This document shows positions 2,277-11,860 of a stretch of DNA of 64,000 nucleotides, piece after piece (within the stretch, counting starts at the first letter, position 1; each line of letters starts with the position of its first letter). The DNA lies in NCBI GenBank assembly GCA_005888745.1, contig VBBS01000029.1, positions 75,709 to 139,708 of the forward strand. The letters are read 5' to 3'. A program made the translations under genes and the position numbers. Origin of the DNA: Candidatus Bathyarchaeota archaeon (GTDB lineage: Archaea; Thermoproteota; Bathyarchaeia; 40CM-2-53-6). Below the pieces are notes generated by a model. It did no database searches, had not been told where the DNA came from, and was given only the letters and a program-made list of their open reading frames with translations.

Positions 2277-3014
2277 TCAGACGGTCCGAAATGGTCCGAA
2301 ATTATGCCAGCGAAGCCCTTTCTTCCGAGAATAGTGTTTCCTCCACTCAACCGCGGCACGTGAAGAACCTATAGTTCGGTTCAAAAGGATCGCTTGCTCA
2401 GCAACGTGCTGTTTTCTAGCGATTACGAAACCAATCTTATCGACGAACACTCGCACATCATGTGCTCTTTGAATCTGAAGAGCATACGCGTCTTTCCTCA
2501 GGACGACGGTCTTGCTGCCATTCTTCCATGTAGATCCTTTTCTCTTCCTAAGGTACGTATTGGAATGTAACCGGAAATGTGATTGAAGCAAGAACCTCAC
2601 CAATCCTAACAATTCTGGATCTGAATTGCAGAGTATGATCTGAAGCCTCAGACAGCCATGATCAACGTAAACGCCCGCGCAGCCATCTGCAGAGAATATG
2701 CCGCGCAAGAAATCCGCCGGATAAGCATCTGCAAAAGGCCTAAGCTCCTCTAGCGGAGAACTGAGGAATAATCCCAAGGAACGCGAGGAGTACTTGGATT
2801 CATAGTATACTTTGCCTAAATCGTGTGTTATTACTAGCTTGTTTGTTTTCCGACCGAGAATATGACCGACTGCAGATTGAAGGCTTCTGCAAAATCGCGG
2901 TCTCGAACAGCTAATTTTACGTGGTGATGGTAAGCGGAGTCTTCGACCAAAGCTGCCATCACCGAGGAAAGATCCAATTACGAAGCTTAGGCCTTCAGAG
3001 GGTTCAAAATTCAA
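2277..3014 (-). CDS. LAGLIDADG family homing endonuclease
   Basis: Two LAGLIDADG-like motifs: LSFVIGSFLGDGSF and FLRGIFSADGCAGVY; TTG start. Confidence 0.85.
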   Translation of the reverse strand: MNFEPSEGLSFVIGSFLGDGSFGRRLRLPSPRKISCSRPRFCRSLQSAVGHILGRKTNKLVITHDLGKVYYESKYSSRSLGLFLSSPLEELRPFADAYPADFLRGIFSADGCAGVYVDHGCLRLQIILCNSDPELLGLVRFLLQSHFRLHSNTYLRKRKGSTWKNGSKTVVLRKDAYALQIQRAHDVRVFVDKIGFVIARKQHVAEQAILLNRTIGSSRAAVEWRKHYSRKKGLRWHNFGPFRTV

Positions 3015-4480: not shown

Positions 4481-5956
4481 TTAGACGATCTCTATGAGAT
4501 CGAGGGACGGGTACCCCTTGTCGAAGTTGAAAGTGGCCCCGTGAATATGGGTGAAAGGTTTCACGCCGTAGATTAGAAGATGACCGTTCCAGTTTTGGAC
4601 CTTTATGTGATAGTCGGCTTGTCTGAGAAACTCATCGCGCACCTTGGTGGGACGTGACGATAATCCGATGCTGAAGGCTCCTTCGTCCCGCAAACCTTCT
4701 CCTATCTCTGTAAAACCTGGAAGTGTCAACTCCTCTCCGTAGACCTGCACGAGCTTGTCAAAGTTCATAGTTAACATCATGCCGCTTGACGTTTCTTTCA
4801 AGGCGTTCCATGTTTTGTAGAATTCTGCAAGATCACTCATTAGCTGGCCCCTCAACTTTAGCCTCCAGGCTTTCGAAGGTAGCTGCGAGTTGAATTCGAC
4901 TATCCGAACTTTCTCTGCCAAGGCTTTGTCGCCTACATAGGGTCTCAGTGCTTCCGCCGAGGATTCCGAGCTAAAGGTTCCCGTTGAAACACTGAAGCAG
5001 GCCCCGCCCTGGTTGACGAAATTAGACCTGATCATATTGATCAATAATCTCAGCGACTGCGGGGAAACGTTGCTCTCCGTGTCGATCATGAAGAAAGCAC
5101 CTTTCCTAATTCCGCCTCCCAGTAGCCGGTCGAGTTCCCTGCTCCCGGTGGAGTAGTGGGTTTCTGTGTGTTGAACTTTCTCTGGACTTCTGACTATGCT
5201 CGGTAGGCCGTTTTCATATTCTTCGTCCAGGAAGGTGAACCTTCCCTTTTCCAAGGAGAATGGAAAGTGTTGGCTCTGGACTCTGAATCCTCTTAGCTTG
5301 TCTATTCCGAGGGACCTAATTCTCCTTCCATCTAGCTCGCTCTGTTCGAGGGTTACTACTCCGTCGACCAGGTAGCCAAGGTTGTCGGCTCGTTCGGCCT
5401 CACTGACGAGAATCACGCTTACTTTTGTCTGATCTAGTTCGGACATAATGGCTGACTCAAGCATTTTTCGTCCTTCAGGTGTCGCGTTTCTCAACGCTCC
5501 TTCCCAGCTATCTACGACAAGGATTGATTTCTGTTTGGCCTGTTTCAGGCGTACGATCTTCGAAAAGACACTGTCGGTATCAGAGCCTCGGAGGTCGTGG
5601 AATTCGTCATTCCAGCTGGCCTTAGAGGATCTCCCGGACATAGAATCAATGACCTCATCGATCCAAGGAAACTGTATGCGCAACTTCACCGGTGAGACCC
5701 TGCTGGACGCGTAGACCCTGCGCGAGTCCGCAACAGCATTCAGGATCTCGAACGCGAGAGTTGTTTTCCCGGTGCCGGGTGCTCCTTGGATGAGCAGGAC
5801 GTTTCCGGGAACTTCGAGAAACTCCAAGAACATGTTCATCATAGGGGACGATGTCGCACGGACTACGGAAGGTTCGAGAGCTTGAGGATCGGATTTCGTT
5901 CCCGAGGCTATCAAGTTATTACAACACGAAGTGAGAAGGAGCGTGAAAGATTTCAA
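4481..5956 (-). CDS. RecA/KaiC-superfamily ATPase, GvpD-like, two-domain
   Basis: Walker A GAPGTGKTTLAFEIL in first domain; second domain GSRELDRLLGGGIRKGAFFMIDTESNVSPQSLRLL. Confidence 0.75.
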   Translation of the reverse strand: MKSFTLLLTSCCNNLIASGTKSDPQALEPSVVRATSSPMMNMFLEFLEVPGNVLLIQGAPGTGKTTLAFEILNAVADSRRVYASSRVSPVKLRIQFPWIDEVIDSMSGRSSKASWNDEFHDLRGSDTDSVFSKIVRLKQAKQKSILVVDSWEGALRNATPEGRKMLESAIMSELDQTKVSVILVSEAERADNLGYLVDGVVTLEQSELDGRRIRSLGIDKLRGFRVQSQHFPFSLEKGRFTFLDEEYENGLPSIVRSPEKVQHTETHYSTGSRELDRLLGGGIRKGAFFMIDTESNVSPQSLRLLINMIRSNFVNQGGACFSVSTGTFSSESSAEALRPYVGDKALAEKVRIVEFNSQLPSKAWRLKLRGQLMSDLAEFYKTWNALKETSSGMMLTMNFDKLVQVYGEELTLPGFTEIGEGLRDEGAFSIGLSSRPTKVRDEFLRQADYHIKVQNWNGHLLIYGVKPFTHIHGATFNFDKGYPSLDLIEIV

Positions 5957-6332: not shown

Positions 6333-6390
6333 GAGGTCCCCAAGTACAATTTTTTAAACAGGTTTGGGGTAGAAGACTCTTGACCTTTTC

Positions 6391-8634
6391 TTGCAGCGAT
6401 CCTACGAACGCTTCAGTTCGGATGTTCTAGACGCTGCTTCTGCCCCGGTTCGTCTTCACATTCTCAAGCTGTTAGTCTCCAAAGGTCCCCTTCCGTACAC
6501 TGAGATAATGTACGAGGCGAAGATGGATCCTGTGCGGGACGCTGGAAAGTTCGTCTATCATCTCAAAACCCTTCGTAAGGCTGGTTTAGTTGCGATCGAA
6601 AAAGGCACGAAAAAGTACAGCATAACAGACCTCGGCAAAATACTCGTCGAGTTCTCGCGCGACCTGGAAGAGTGGGTTGCCGTTAAGCGAGGCCGCCTCT
6701 TCGTCCGAACCTCCAAGATGACAATCGAGGAATTTGACCGGACCCGGATCGCTTCTTCCCTCGTCACCGAAGCCGGGATGCCCCAAAGCCTGGCAGACGA
6801 GATAGCCTCAGAAGCCGAAGAAAGACTTCTGCGGTTCGGAACAACCTATCTCACAGCGCCCTTAGTCCGTGAACTCGTCAACACCATCCTCGTCGAGAGA
6901 AAACTCGAAGAATACCGCCACAAGCTAACTCGACTGGGACTTCCAGTCAACGATGTAACAATCCTCCTTAAGGAAGCCGGCCGAAAACACCTCGATTCGG
7001 CCTGGGTACAACAATCTGCAGGGGCTGCTGTCACCGAAGAATATGTCCTGCTAAACAGCCTCCCCCGGCCCCTAGTCGACGCCCACTTCACCGGACAGAT
7101 CCACCTAGAAGACGCAGAGTCATGGATACTCAAGCCCAGCATATTCTTCCATGACCCCCGTCCCTTCCTACGAAAAGGACTCCCACGATCCACGCCACCA
7201 GTCTCTTTCGAAACCGCGCTCGGAGCATTACTCCGACTAGCCCGCATAACCGAAGGACAAGTAGCAAGTGAGCAAGTCTTCGACCACATCAACGTCCTAC
7301 TGGCACCGTTCATCCGAGGGATCCCGACCGAAAGAGTCCAAGAAGCGATGAGACTATTTCTCTACCAACTCAACTGGGACGGTTTCTCAAACAGCCTTCC
7401 CTTCCGAACTACAATCGGACTCGACCGAACGATTCCCAGTTCTCTCGAGAAATCAGAGGCAGGAGCACCCAACGGCAAGAGAGAGGGGGTGTTCGGCGAC
7501 TACGCCCACGAGGCCGAAGAATTGTTCCGGACAGTCATAGTTGCAAGTATGGAAATTGCAAGGAACAATCTCCTCGTCAACCCTTCAGTCACAGTGAACC
7601 TCAGCCGAGAAAGACTGTCTGAGCCTGACAGCCTCCTATCGATGACCTATGACGCGTCCCTGAAATATTCTATCCCAAACTATAGGATTCAAGATCCTGA
7701 ACAGACCGTTACCGTATCCTCTGACGGCAATGCCATGGTCACCGATGACACGAATAATATTGCAGGTGGAGCAGTGGTGGGAACCGTCCAAGTCAATCTC
7801 CCAAGAATATCATACGAGGCAACGGGAAAAGACGAGCGATTTCTCCAAGGAGTTCAGAACGCTGTTGATGAAGCGGTGAAGGCCCTAGAGATTCGTGGAC
7901 AAGCCATACAAGAAAGAATGAAAGAGGGACTTCTGCCACTCCTTTCATGGGAAACTGACGGGAACGCGTATTATAGATCCCAACCAATGGCGGAGATCGG
8001 CCTCCTAGGGCTAAACGAGGCCGTTAAACATCACACAAAGAAAGATGTCGATGCCAAAGATTCACTCGCCTTTCTCAAAAAGATCATCGAAGCAACACGA
8101 CGCGCCATCTCGGAAAGCGATAATCCCACACTCAGAATCCGCGTCGGGCTTCATCCCTCTCCGGAAGCATCCTCGAGACTCGCGAGCATCGACGCTGAAA
8201 AATACGGATTCTCCACAATAGTCTACCAGGGGTCCAAACGGCACCCCTACTACACGGATGTACCCTTGATTCCGTTGACCCATAAAATACCGCTATCTTC
8301 ACGCGCGTTTCTTGAGGGGGAAGCTCAGAAACTCCTCGATGGAGGGACAATCCTCCCGCTAGTCATGGGGGAAAAACCAGGGGCCGCTGGGTTGGCGAGA
8401 GCATCTCAATTACTCGCAGATTCAGGCGTCAAACACTTCACCTTTTCCAACATGCTTTCACGGTGCCAGTTCTGCTATCAAGTCGATACCGGAGTTCATA
8501 CAAAATGCGCGAATTGCGGTTCAGACAAACTGACAGTCGTGGCGAAATACGCAGGTAGATTGATTCCCCTCGACTTATGGACCGAGTCAAGGCGGAGAGA
8601 CCTGGACAGGATCGCAGGCTACGTTTTCTCGTAG
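6391..8634 (+). CDS. HTH (ArsR-like) + ATP-cone + anaerobic ribonucleotide reductase (NrdD)-like fusion protein
   Basis: N-terminal winged HTH (VRLHILKLLVSKGPLPYTEIM...FVYHLKTLRKAGLV), ATP-cone (VRTSKMTIEEFDRTRIASSLVTEAGMPQSLADEIASEAEERL), NrdD-like GTVQVNLPRISYEA, Zn ribbon CQFC...CANC and C-terminal DRIAGYVFS. Confidence 0.8.
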   Translation: MQRSYERFSSDVLDAASAPVRLHILKLLVSKGPLPYTEIMYEAKMDPVRDAGKFVYHLKTLRKAGLVAIEKGTKKYSITDLGKILVEFSRDLEEWVAVKRGRLFVRTSKMTIEEFDRTRIASSLVTEAGMPQSLADEIASEAEERLLRFGTTYLTAPLVRELVNTILVERKLEEYRHKLTRLGLPVNDVTILLKEAGRKHLDSAWVQQSAGAAVTEEYVLLNSLPRPLVDAHFTGQIHLEDAESWILKPSIFFHDPRPFLRKGLPRSTPPVSFETALGALLRLARITEGQVASEQVFDHINVLLAPFIRGIPTERVQEAMRLFLYQLNWDGFSNSLPFRTTIGLDRTIPSSLEKSEAGAPNGKREGVFGDYAHEAEELFRTVIVASMEIARNNLLVNPSVTVNLSRERLSEPDSLLSMTYDASLKYSIPNYRIQDPEQTVTVSSDGNAMVTDDTNNIAGGAVVGTVQVNLPRISYEATGKDERFLQGVQNAVDEAVKALEIRGQAIQERMKEGLLPLLSWETDGNAYYRSQPMAEIGLLGLNEAVKHHTKKDVDAKDSLAFLKKIIEATRRAISESDNPTLRIRVGLHPSPEASSRLASIDAEKYGFSTIVYQGSKRHPYYTDVPLIPLTHKIPLSSRAFLEGEAQKLLDGGTILPLVMGEKPGAAGLARASQLLADSGVKHFTFSNMLSRCQFCYQVDTGVHTKCANCGSDKLTVVAKYAGRLIPLDLWTESRRRDLDRIAGYVFS

Positions 8635-8752: not shown

Positions 8753-11700
8753 TTGACAGAGATCCGAGTTGGTTCGAGGAGGCCCTTCAGAATTGGTCTC
8801 CTAACTGGAGGTCTCGCCATCATCGCCGTTCTCGGAATACAGCTCATCTTACTCAGACAACTCTCCGTCTTCAACACAGGGCTCGGCCTCTGGGTCCTCG
8901 CCACAGAGTTCGTTTCCACTGCCGCCCTGCTCCTGGCCTTGGTGTTTGTCGGCTCATTTTTCTCCGCAAGAATTCAACGCCAGTCGGGCTCTCGGACCCC
9001 CTGGGTTGTCTACTGCGTTCTTCTCGGTCTCGCCTGCTTCGCAGCATTCACACTCGGCATGAACAACGGCCTGACCTTCGACGTGAAATACTCAACCTAT
9101 GCCACAAAAGCAGGAATTAACTTTCTCAACCTTCAGTACCTAAACGGGGCAGTCATCTGGACAACTCTCCTCCTAACAGCTCTATTCATGCTCAGCGACC
9201 CGAGAATCTCCTCAGTCAAGGGAAGCGATGGGAAGAGACATTTCTACATGCACAGCAAACTCCTCGGAATTCTTCGACTACTATCCAAGACCAACCTGGG
9301 AGCGATCTTACAAACTACCAGAAGAAGCTACTATGAGTCATCCAGCCCTAGACCATCCTTCGACTGGGACATTGGAGAGACCCTTGACCATGCAGTCCTA
9401 TCGAAGAGTGGCAAATTGCAGTGGAACGACAAGTTTCCCGTCTCCTATCCCCCATTCCTCGCCTGGACAACGATCAAGTTTCTCCTCGCCCTAGGAATCG
9501 CGGCAACCATCGCAATTGACGTTGCTCTAAGATTCGTCACCATACAGAATTATCTTGTCCAAACAAACAGCACCTGGTTGGCGCAGGTACAGAACTACTT
9601 CTCAATACTAGCAATGAGACTTTCTGGAACTTACCAGGTGTCGTCGACTTTCGGCATCGACAACGTCTTCACATTTGAAGTCTTCAAGTTCATCCTATCA
9701 CTAATCGGCCTAGCCTTTGCTGTTGTAGGAACCAGACTTGGAGTCGCGCTCCTTGCAAACGCTATGGTGGGACTTTCCAAGAGAGCGTTCGGGATGTCCC
9801 GGATCGCGCTCAGCAACGTATTCGTCATTGCCGCGCTACCAATTATCTTCGCAGTTTTGGGCAGCGGGGCCTGGGTCTATGACGTAGGCACATCCTTCAT
9901 TCTCTCCACCCTGTTCATCGTGATGATCGGAATAGCGTTCATGGCCGGGTATACACGAACCCAGAGAATCCTGCGCATTAAGATCACCCGCGTCAAGGGT
10001 CTCATAATACTCGCAATCGTCTTGGTCTCTACGATCACGCTTCCCGTGTACGGAACCTATCTCCGGGCCCAGTCTGGCCAATACATCAACTACCAATGGA
10101 ATCCAGCTTACGTCCCAACAATTCAGTACACCCGCTGGGCGTACGGAGTGGATTCGGTCACCAGCGCCGACAAAGCTCTCATAACAAGTTCGGGAACCCA
10201 GACCAATACGCTAGATCACATCCGAATATTCACAAACGAATCGGCCCGGCTGAACATGAAACCGCTAGTCGGGGTCAACTGGATGTCCATCGACAACGCT
10301 CCTGTAGACATCATCTTCATCAACGGCACCGAATACTGGGTGTCCGTCCTCCAGCTCGTACAGGCAGGCCTCCCGAACGACCCCGACGTCTGGCGTACTC
10401 AACATCTCCTGCTAACTCATTCGGAGAAAATTCTAGCGGTAAACGCTGCAACGACTGAGGCGGTGGACATAGCCAAAATCTGGAACCTAACTCAGTCTCC
10501 CCAGATCTACTACGGCGAGGGTGGATTATGGCGAACGGCTGACGAGGTCTACCTGAACATTCCAGGCTTCAACGAGACCCACCTATCCGCGTACACAGGA
10601 CCTCCTTCCTACAGTGGAGTACCGGACTATACGTACAAGGGTTTCTGGCTGTACTGGAAGTTCTTCTGGCAGGGAAGGTTCGACTTCGCCAACGGAGCTT
10701 ACGGTAATATCAAGGCGCTCGAGTACCGAGACGCAGACATCAGAATCTCTAACATTCTATTACCGAACATGCAGTTAGACCCGGACCCCTATCCTGTAGT
10801 AGACAAACAAGGGAACATCTATTTGTTGCACTGGGTTTGGATCAACTGGCAGAGTCCCAGCGACTTCGCGGACTACCCCGACCACACCGACACATCGATC
10901 CTTCGATTGTTCGCAGCAACGCTTACAGACATGAAAACCGGAGACGTCACCGGGTACCTGTACGAGAACGGGAAGACCGATTACGTCAGGTCGTTCTACA
11001 ATTCCATGTATCCTCAGTGGAAACAGCAAATGCCCTCTTGGCTTCTCCCCCAGCTGAGATATCCTGAAACATACTTCAACACTCAACAAGACGTGTACAA
11101 TTTCTACTTCCAAACAGACCCATTACAATGGCAGAGAAACGTCTTCCTGCAATCAGCAGAAACCACTCGGTTCATTATCACACCGATTAATGGAACTCTA
11201 ACGTGGGCCGCAGTTAGGCTGGTAGAAATTTACCACAGCCCATCTCAAAACCTGGCAGGCCTCTACGTTGCTCCAGCAGGAGCACGGACAGGACAAGTTT
11301 ACCTTATCAGGTTCCCGGAGGGTACTACCGTCATCGGACCCAATTCGGCCGTCTCAGCTGTGACAACCGACCCGCAGATCAAGACTCAGCTAACTCTCCA
11401 TCCAGATTGGACTCTTGGAAACATACTCTTGTATTCTGTAAACGGCCGTTTGATCTACGTCATTCCGTATTATGGAACGCAAGGCATCCTTACTGTACCA
11501 GAGATGGTGACGGTGGTTGACGGCTCCACGAAACAAGTTGGGCATTATTTTATTGTAAAGCCTACTGACTCCATCGAAGTAGGAGGCGCAACGACCAAGG
11601 CGGTCAATAGCATCGGTATATCGACCACCCAGATAACCATCAGCGGCAACCTGACCTCAAGAGACCAGTACGTGGATGGGGGAAACAGCCGTTGGATTCT

Positions 11701-11860
11701 CGGAATAAGCACGACCGCGGGACCCATTCATGTCCTAGCGAAACAAGAGATTTTGACAACAGCCGATAAAGTCACAATAACTACTTCGCCCCTTGGAAAA
11801 CCAATTACGCTCGTAGTGGACAACACCACGGACCCCTACACCGTTTTGAGCGTTCAATGA
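8753..11860 (+). CDS. UPF0182-like large membrane protein
   Basis: N-terminal multi-TM half followed by long extracytoplasmic domain; start may be slightly upstream. Confidence 0.6.
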   Translation: MTEIRVGSRRPFRIGLLTGGLAIIAVLGIQLILLRQLSVFNTGLGLWVLATEFVSTAALLLALVFVGSFFSARIQRQSGSRTPWVVYCVLLGLACFAAFTLGMNNGLTFDVKYSTYATKAGINFLNLQYLNGAVIWTTLLLTALFMLSDPRISSVKGSDGKRHFYMHSKLLGILRLLSKTNLGAILQTTRRSYYESSSPRPSFDWDIGETLDHAVLSKSGKLQWNDKFPVSYPPFLAWTTIKFLLALGIAATIAIDVALRFVTIQNYLVQTNSTWLAQVQNYFSILAMRLSGTYQVSSTFGIDNVFTFEVFKFILSLIGLAFAVVGTRLGVALLANAMVGLSKRAFGMSRIALSNVFVIAALPIIFAVLGSGAWVYDVGTSFILSTLFIVMIGIAFMAGYTRTQRILRIKITRVKGLIILAIVLVSTITLPVYGTYLRAQSGQYINYQWNPAYVPTIQYTRWAYGVDSVTSADKALITSSGTQTNTLDHIRIFTNESARLNMKPLVGVNWMSIDNAPVDIIFINGTEYWVSVLQLVQAGLPNDPDVWRTQHLLLTHSEKILAVNAATTEAVDIAKIWNLTQSPQIYYGEGGLWRTADEVYLNIPGFNETHLSAYTGPPSYSGVPDYTYKGFWLYWKFFWQGRFDFANGAYGNIKALEYRDADIRISNILLPNMQLDPDPYPVVDKQGNIYLLHWVWINWQSPSDFADYPDHTDTSILRLFAATLTDMKTGDVTGYLYENGKTDYVRSFYNSMYPQWKQQMPSWLLPQLRYPETYFNTQQDVYNFYFQTDPLQWQRNVFLQSAETTRFIITPINGTLTWAAVRLVEIYHSPSQNLAGLYVAPAGARTGQVYLIRFPEGTTVIGPNSAVSAVTTDPQIKTQLTLHPDWTLGNILLYSVNGRLIYVIPYYGTQGILTVPEMVTVVDGSTKQVGHYFIVKPTDSIEVGGATTKAVNSIGISTTQITISGNLTSRDQYVDGGNSRWILGISTTAGPIHVLAKQEILTTADKVTITTSPLGKPITLVVDNTTDPYTVLSVQ

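Follow-up and report, generated by a model that had tools for sequence, protein, structure and literature searches.

The window, a stretch of 64,000 nucleotides from a Candidatus Bathyarchaeota genome (contig VBBS01000029.1), carries a gene whose product joins a winged helix-turn-helix (HTH), an ATP-cone and a body that resembles NrdD, the class III ribonucleotide reductase (RNR). The initial annotation had described this combination in one open reading frame, and Pfam confirmed it. The features and their coordinates are shown in Table 1. The TTGCA start of the gene was kept in nearly all orthologs of the genus. No RNR gene lies beside it; its neighbors are pyrB and a gene for an UPF0182 membrane protein. 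The latter and a KaiC/GvpD-like P-loop protein flank the gene, and the conservation of both is limited to part of the genus.

Table 1. Features of the locus, with positions in the window
Feature	Position	Strand	Basis or remark
LAGLIDADG homing-endonuclease-type protein	2277-3014	-	by eye (GSFLGDGSF)
KaiC/GvpD-like P-loop protein	4481-5956	-	
GTACAATTTTTTAAAC in the gene's own promoter	6344-6359	+	TATA-like core promoter, 0/500 shuffles
HTH-ATP-cone-pseudo-NrdD gene	6391-8634	+	747 aa, TTG start
Winged HTH, aa ~10-95	6418-6675	+	Pfam DUF7347/HTH_20/HTH_5, alignments, AF2
ATP-cone, aa ~103-192	6697-6966	+	PF03477, conservation by domain
NrdD-like 10-stranded barrel body, predicted dead	7024-8601	+	PF13597, AF2, Foldseek
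I251, place of the N-terminal-barrel reductive Cys of NrdD	7141-7143	+	joint alignment
G446-N447, where NrdD has the CC(R) radical-cysteine pair	7726-7731	+	joint alignment
Zn ribbon CxxC...CxxC (C692, C695, C706, C709)	8464-8517	+	invariant, 55/55 family members
G722 in KYAGRL, where the glycyl-radical Gly of NrdD aligns	8554-8556	+	alignment with NrdD
RIAGY, aa 740-744	8608-8622	+	not conserved, not the glycyl site
UPF0182 membrane protein	8753-11860	+	

Domain composition and fold

The Pfam families DUF7347 and HTH_20 covered aa 11-86 (E 2e-6 and 5e-6), at or above the gathering score. In the AlphaFold2 (AF2) model this region has helices at 19-31, 36-42, and 51-63 and the strands of a wing at 67-69 and 76-78, and family alignments revealed a near-invariant RDAGKF(V/A)YHL within it. 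Profiles and model together identify a predicted winged HTH of the ArsR-like type. The ATP-cone was matched by PF03477 at aa 104-175 (E 7e-5), with 23.8 bits in the protein scan, just below the curated cut-off, and 26.7 bits in the genome search, above it. The NRDD family (PF13597) spanned aa 212-737 (E 7e-57). The NCBIfam equivalog for NrdD, TIGR02487, gave 159 bits and did not reach its curated cut-off of 326.

The structure prediction suggested by the initial annotation returned a confident model (pLDDT 89, pTM 0.77) with the class III NrdD fold, which Foldseek matched to 4u3e (E 3e-26), 4col, and 1h78 of T4 (TMt 0.74). Profiles and model agree in placing the 10-stranded barrel and the C-terminal Zn ribbon of NrdD in the protein. 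A genome scan of soil Bathyarchaeota MAGs recovered 19 orthologs at 40%-92% identity; with these and hundreds more, the fusion is far from a chance event, and its presence in independent genomes rules out an artefact of annotation or assembly.

Catalytic positions and conservation

We aligned 55 members of the family jointly with 13 bona fide NrdDs. The reductive cysteine, the second of the active site, was present in 13 of the 13 NrdDs and in none of the 55 family members. The CC pair of the finger loop was likewise complete in all 13 NrdDs, whereas the family had a cysteine in 1/55 at position 446 and in 5/55 at position 447. It had been claimed from the sequence of the window protein that its cysteines are limited to the C-terminal ribbon and that the active-site cysteine expected before NLPRI is missing. 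Both statements held: the four ribbon cysteines are the only ones in the protein, the CC of true NrdDs falls on G446-N447, and the loss extends through the family. The initial annotation had also considered that the C-terminal pair might contribute the catalytic cysteine. This possibility failed: the four residues align with the Zn-ribbon cysteines of true NrdDs, and these enzymes have the CC pair in addition.

The NxN flap, which in NrdD lies over the substrate (PMC11226230), had both asparagines in 13/13 NrdDs. The window protein has A196 and R198 at these positions, and Asn was not among the common residues of the 55 family members there. One claim had to be given up, namely that RIAGY is a glycyl-radical-like motif. 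The glycyl loop of NrdD, RVTGYY (R-V/I-T/C-G-Y), aligned instead with KYAGRL, in which the Gly is present and the RVxGY context is gone, and RIAGY was replaced by RITDY even in the ortholog at 92% identity and by RIAAY, RVIPY, or RLTVV in others. At the position of G722, Gly was found in 9 of the 55 family members and in 12 of the 13 NrdDs (one NrdD row was truncated), and Tyr was not among the common family residues after it.

By alignment, the catalytic cysteine positions, the NxN flap, and the consensus glycyl loop are lost across the family, which looks dead as a reductase. The sporadic cysteines at 447 and glycines at 722 persist, and they count against the reading of the protein as a regulator. 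The NrdD of T. maritima has Ile359 at the tip of the finger loop and works without a pre-positioned radical cysteine (PMC4493059), so a displaced cysteine alone is no proof of inactivity. That enzyme retains the SCCR motif, the reductive Cys125, and the Gly loop (PMC4493059).

Mean pairwise identity among the 55 diverse members was 63% for the cone, 46% for the HTH, and 32% for the body, versus 44% for the cone and 49% for the body of true NrdDs. Judged by these identities, conservation is inverted relative to NrdD, with the cone best kept and the body least. Several lineages have a further eroded body (proteins of 539-617 aa) and a still recognizable HTH and cone; the NRDD match of two of the loci (L151 and L156) was under the cut-off or missing. 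A 630 aa protein (L164, G352:C2) with an HTH, a Zn ribbon, a weak match to the family body, and no cone is possibly a far-eroded member. The tree of cone and body, built by a quick method and with some long branches, parted the family from NrdD by one branch (SH-aLRT 99). Homology, the lost catalytic positions, and this single branch show, at the level of sequence, that the protein originated from a class III RNR.

Distribution, reductase genes, and promoter elements

A search with the HTH and cone profile found the fusion in 200 of 257 Bathyarchaeia genomes (107 of the 120 good ones) and in about 277 of 398 genomes of Thermoproteota, the latter count being somewhat high because the weakest matches are partly non-members (other HTH proteins and the cones of true NrdDs). 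Four loci (L160-L163) that matched only in the HTH part and had a different C-terminus were set aside as other HTH proteins. Archaeal amoA was detected in 10 of 10 tested genomes of three families that bear the gene (f29, f58, and f61), which are therefore ammonia-oxidizing archaea. The fusion was present in all three sampled families of this group.

The initial annotation had suggested looking for a separate functional RNR in the genome, and we found a single class II nrdJ, unlinked to the pseudo-NrdD gene and without an ATP-cone, unlike the nrdJ of ammonia oxidizers, which has one. The nrdJ of the window genome (G000:C38; L204:4368-8195) carries an intein, with splicing and LAGLIDADG domains, that is missing in many congeners. 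As the window genome is a MAG of 93% completeness, absences from it are not absolute. The searches of this genome returned no NrdD besides the pseudo-NrdD, no NrdR match (TIGR00244), and no second ATP-cone; as NrdJ has no cone, the one in the pseudo-NrdD protein is the only one found there. NrdG2 was also not found above the cut-off (best TIGR02495 match 34 bits vs. 131), with a model of limited sensitivity, which reached its cut-off in just 2 of the 14 genomes used as controls. True NrdR was above the cut-off in 35 of the 398 Thermoproteota genomes, 34 of them in the Bathyarchaeia family f10 and one in f12, a confinement that looks like an acquisition. Weak NrdR matches to the cone part only, in ORFs of ~95-116 aa (e.g., in G270, G316, G368, and G452), are possible stand-alone ATP-cone proteins.

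The gene lies directly upstream of, and on the same strand as, the class II nrdJ in 23 of 23 sampled genomes of the ammonia-oxidizing family f29, and the same operon-like arrangement occurs in f58, f61, f71, and two of the three f18 loci. In 15 loci of f9, f12, f15, f21, f22, f23, and f47, it is placed in this way before a bona fide nrdD. The gaps between the gene and that of the RNR are mostly 70-330 nt, which is promoter-sized. Linkage to an RNR was missing from over half of the family-level groups that were sampled, the gene lying near pyrB or other genes instead, and f10, the holder of true NrdR, had none in 10 of 10 sampled loci. Gene order thus indicates that an association with RNR genes, as known for NrdR, exists at the level of the family and not by adjacency in the window. 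A glutaredoxin-like ORF of ~100 aa with a CTRC motif was often found between the gene and nrdD (L070-L075 and L092), which suggests that these archaeal NrdDs have a reductant of their own.

The nrdJ promoter of the window genome contains TTTATACGATTCTGTACAAA, an inverted repeat (TTTATAC-N6-GTACAAA) directly before the TATA-like CTCTTTAAT. The repeat was kept in the genus and its flanks were variable. A search of the 2.2 Mb window genome with TTTRTAC-N6-GTAYAAA gave one site even with one mismatch allowed, and the reversed control gave none. Across the 257 genomes there were 26 exact sites. All 16 of those in f1 and f6 (16 genomes) lie upstream of nrdJ, before two nrdJ types that are only ~35% identical. 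The other 10 belong to distant families and were not beside an RNR in the loci examined, which include trpB and trpE; those near trpB/trpE in f10 (L236, L237, L238, and L240) are perhaps operators of a tryptophan regulator. By its position the repeat belongs to the nrdJ promoter. Its tie to the pseudo-NrdD protein is suggested by co-occurrence, and another factor could bind it. An Rfam search of the nrdJ leader gave nothing up to E = 1.

A related element, GTACAGAATTTTATAC, was found in the intergenic regions between the gene and nrdD, at no more than 1 in 500 shuffles in five of eight held-out regions; its layout differs from that of the nrdJ repeat. The promoter element GTACAATTTTTTAAAC of the window gene resembles it, which we take as a lead only. 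The motif of the nrdD promoters had no convincing match in the nrdJ intergenic regions of ammonia oxidizers (one weak match in L145). A different block, GTAgcGGTGTnAA...TTGA, is conserved there in f29 (L184-L203), ahead of the TATA box of nrdJ. It is partly palindromic (TCAAT-N3-ATTGA) and is a candidate operator of the f29 ortholog.

Proposed function and relation to known systems

The initial annotation had proposed a reductase-derived regulator similar to NrdR in logic and different in architecture, and of the readings considered this one agrees best with the loss of the cysteines, the conservation of cone and HTH, the linkage to RNR genes, and the promoter repeat. It also fits the presence of the gene in ammonia oxidizers, and, for the window genome, the separate class II RNR and the lack of NrdR or NrdG2 above the cut-off. 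We consider it probable that a class III RNR was duplicated and that the copy became this protein, a transcription factor that acts on RNR promoters. The missing RNR linkage in the window and in many groups, f10 among them, and the different layouts of the nrdJ repeat and the nrdD element weigh against it. In such a mechanism, the winged HTH would bind an operator at RNR promoters, for which TTTATACGATTCTGTACAAA upstream of nrdJ is the candidate in the window genome. By homology, the ATP-cone would report the dATP/ATP ratio. The NrdD body, dead and probably a dimer, would pass a nucleotide-driven rearrangement to the HTH. By analogy with NrdR, the dATP-loaded form would bind the operator and repress the RNR, and the ATP-loaded form would let go. 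The sign of the control could be reversed, and its direction is the least certain step.

It is improbable that the dead body acts as a pseudoenzyme subunit that heterodimerizes with a working RNR and tunes it allosterically, the HTH then serving as a protein-protein or autoregulatory module. The fully retained NrdD fold and the 15 loci in which an active nrdD adjoins the gene would agree with such a role. However, the gene is paired in ammonia oxidizers with NrdJ, an RNR of another class, and it persists where NrdD is absent altogether; the highly conserved HTH and the existence of a repeat in RNR promoters also argue against it.

It is comparably unlikely that the protein is a general nucleotide-responsive regulator that acts mainly on pyrimidine biosynthesis (pyrB/pyrI) or on other targets outside the RNR genes. 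The gene is adjoined by pyrB rather than by an RNR in f10, f35, f50, the window's own group, and others, and f10 has a true NrdR. Nevertheless, in most cases pyrB is encoded on the other strand, the only site of the repeat in the window genome precedes nrdJ, and the linkage to two RNR classes in many groups would be hard to explain otherwise. That the protein, though divergent, still works as a class III reductase by way of an unusual radical relay, for which the retained fold, G722, and the T. maritima enzyme could be invoked, is extremely improbable, and we rejected this identity: T. maritima NrdD keeps the SCCR motif and Cys125, whereas the family has lost the reductive cysteine, the flap, and the consensus glycyl loop, its members occur in amoA-bearing archaea, and no NrdG2 was above the cut-off in the window genome.

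NrdR is a repressor of RNR operons composed of a Zn ribbon and an ATP-cone (PMC9110341, PMC12176259). The proposed regulator resembles it in joining a DNA-binding module to an ATP-cone, in its linkage to RNR genes of different classes, in the palindromic site in an RNR promoter, and in that it can be encoded beside its RNR, as in nrdRJ. It differs by a winged HTH in place of the N-terminal Zn ribbon of NrdR, by a cone that resembles those of archaeal NrdDs, by a whole dead NrdD, and by its size (about 540-800 aa vs. ~150 aa). With NrdD it shares the ATP-cone, the 10-stranded barrel, and the C-terminal Zn ribbon; unlike NrdD, it has an additional HTH and a separate position on the tree, and it is without the reductive cysteine, the radical CC pair, the NxN flap, and the RVTGY loop.

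BirA and PutA are trigger enzymes that keep their activity. As in these, we propose that the fold of a metabolic enzyme reads a metabolite and controls the transcription of the same pathway; the present case differs in that catalysis appears to be lost and that sensing would fall to what was once the allosteric domain of the enzyme. Searches of open-access literature and the paper on RNR family phylogeny yielded no description of an HTH-cone-NrdD protein. Nucleotide-sensing regulators of RNR are already known, and what appears unusual here is that one would have been built from a whole enzyme.

On balance, we lean towards a family of archaeal RNR regulators that is ancient, extends across the phylum, and may functionally replace NrdR in much of Thermoproteota. 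It would have arisen when a winged HTH was fused to a duplicated anaerobic reductase, catalysis being lost afterwards. It would sense dATP/ATP, and possibly also single dNTPs through the former specificity site, and control whichever RNR class is in use, including class II in ammonia-oxidizing archaea.

NrdR is rare in archaea (PMC9110341, PMC12176259), and for this reason it is still mostly an open question how archaea regulate their supply of dNTPs through gene expression. The family offers a concrete candidate regulator, carried by the majority of Bathyarchaeia and by each of the three ammonia-oxidizer families sampled; as some ammonia-oxidizing archaea can be cultured, the candidate is directly testable. 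It would be a complete metabolic enzyme that was converted and now probably regulates the enzymes that succeeded it, with the old allosteric domain as its most conserved part.
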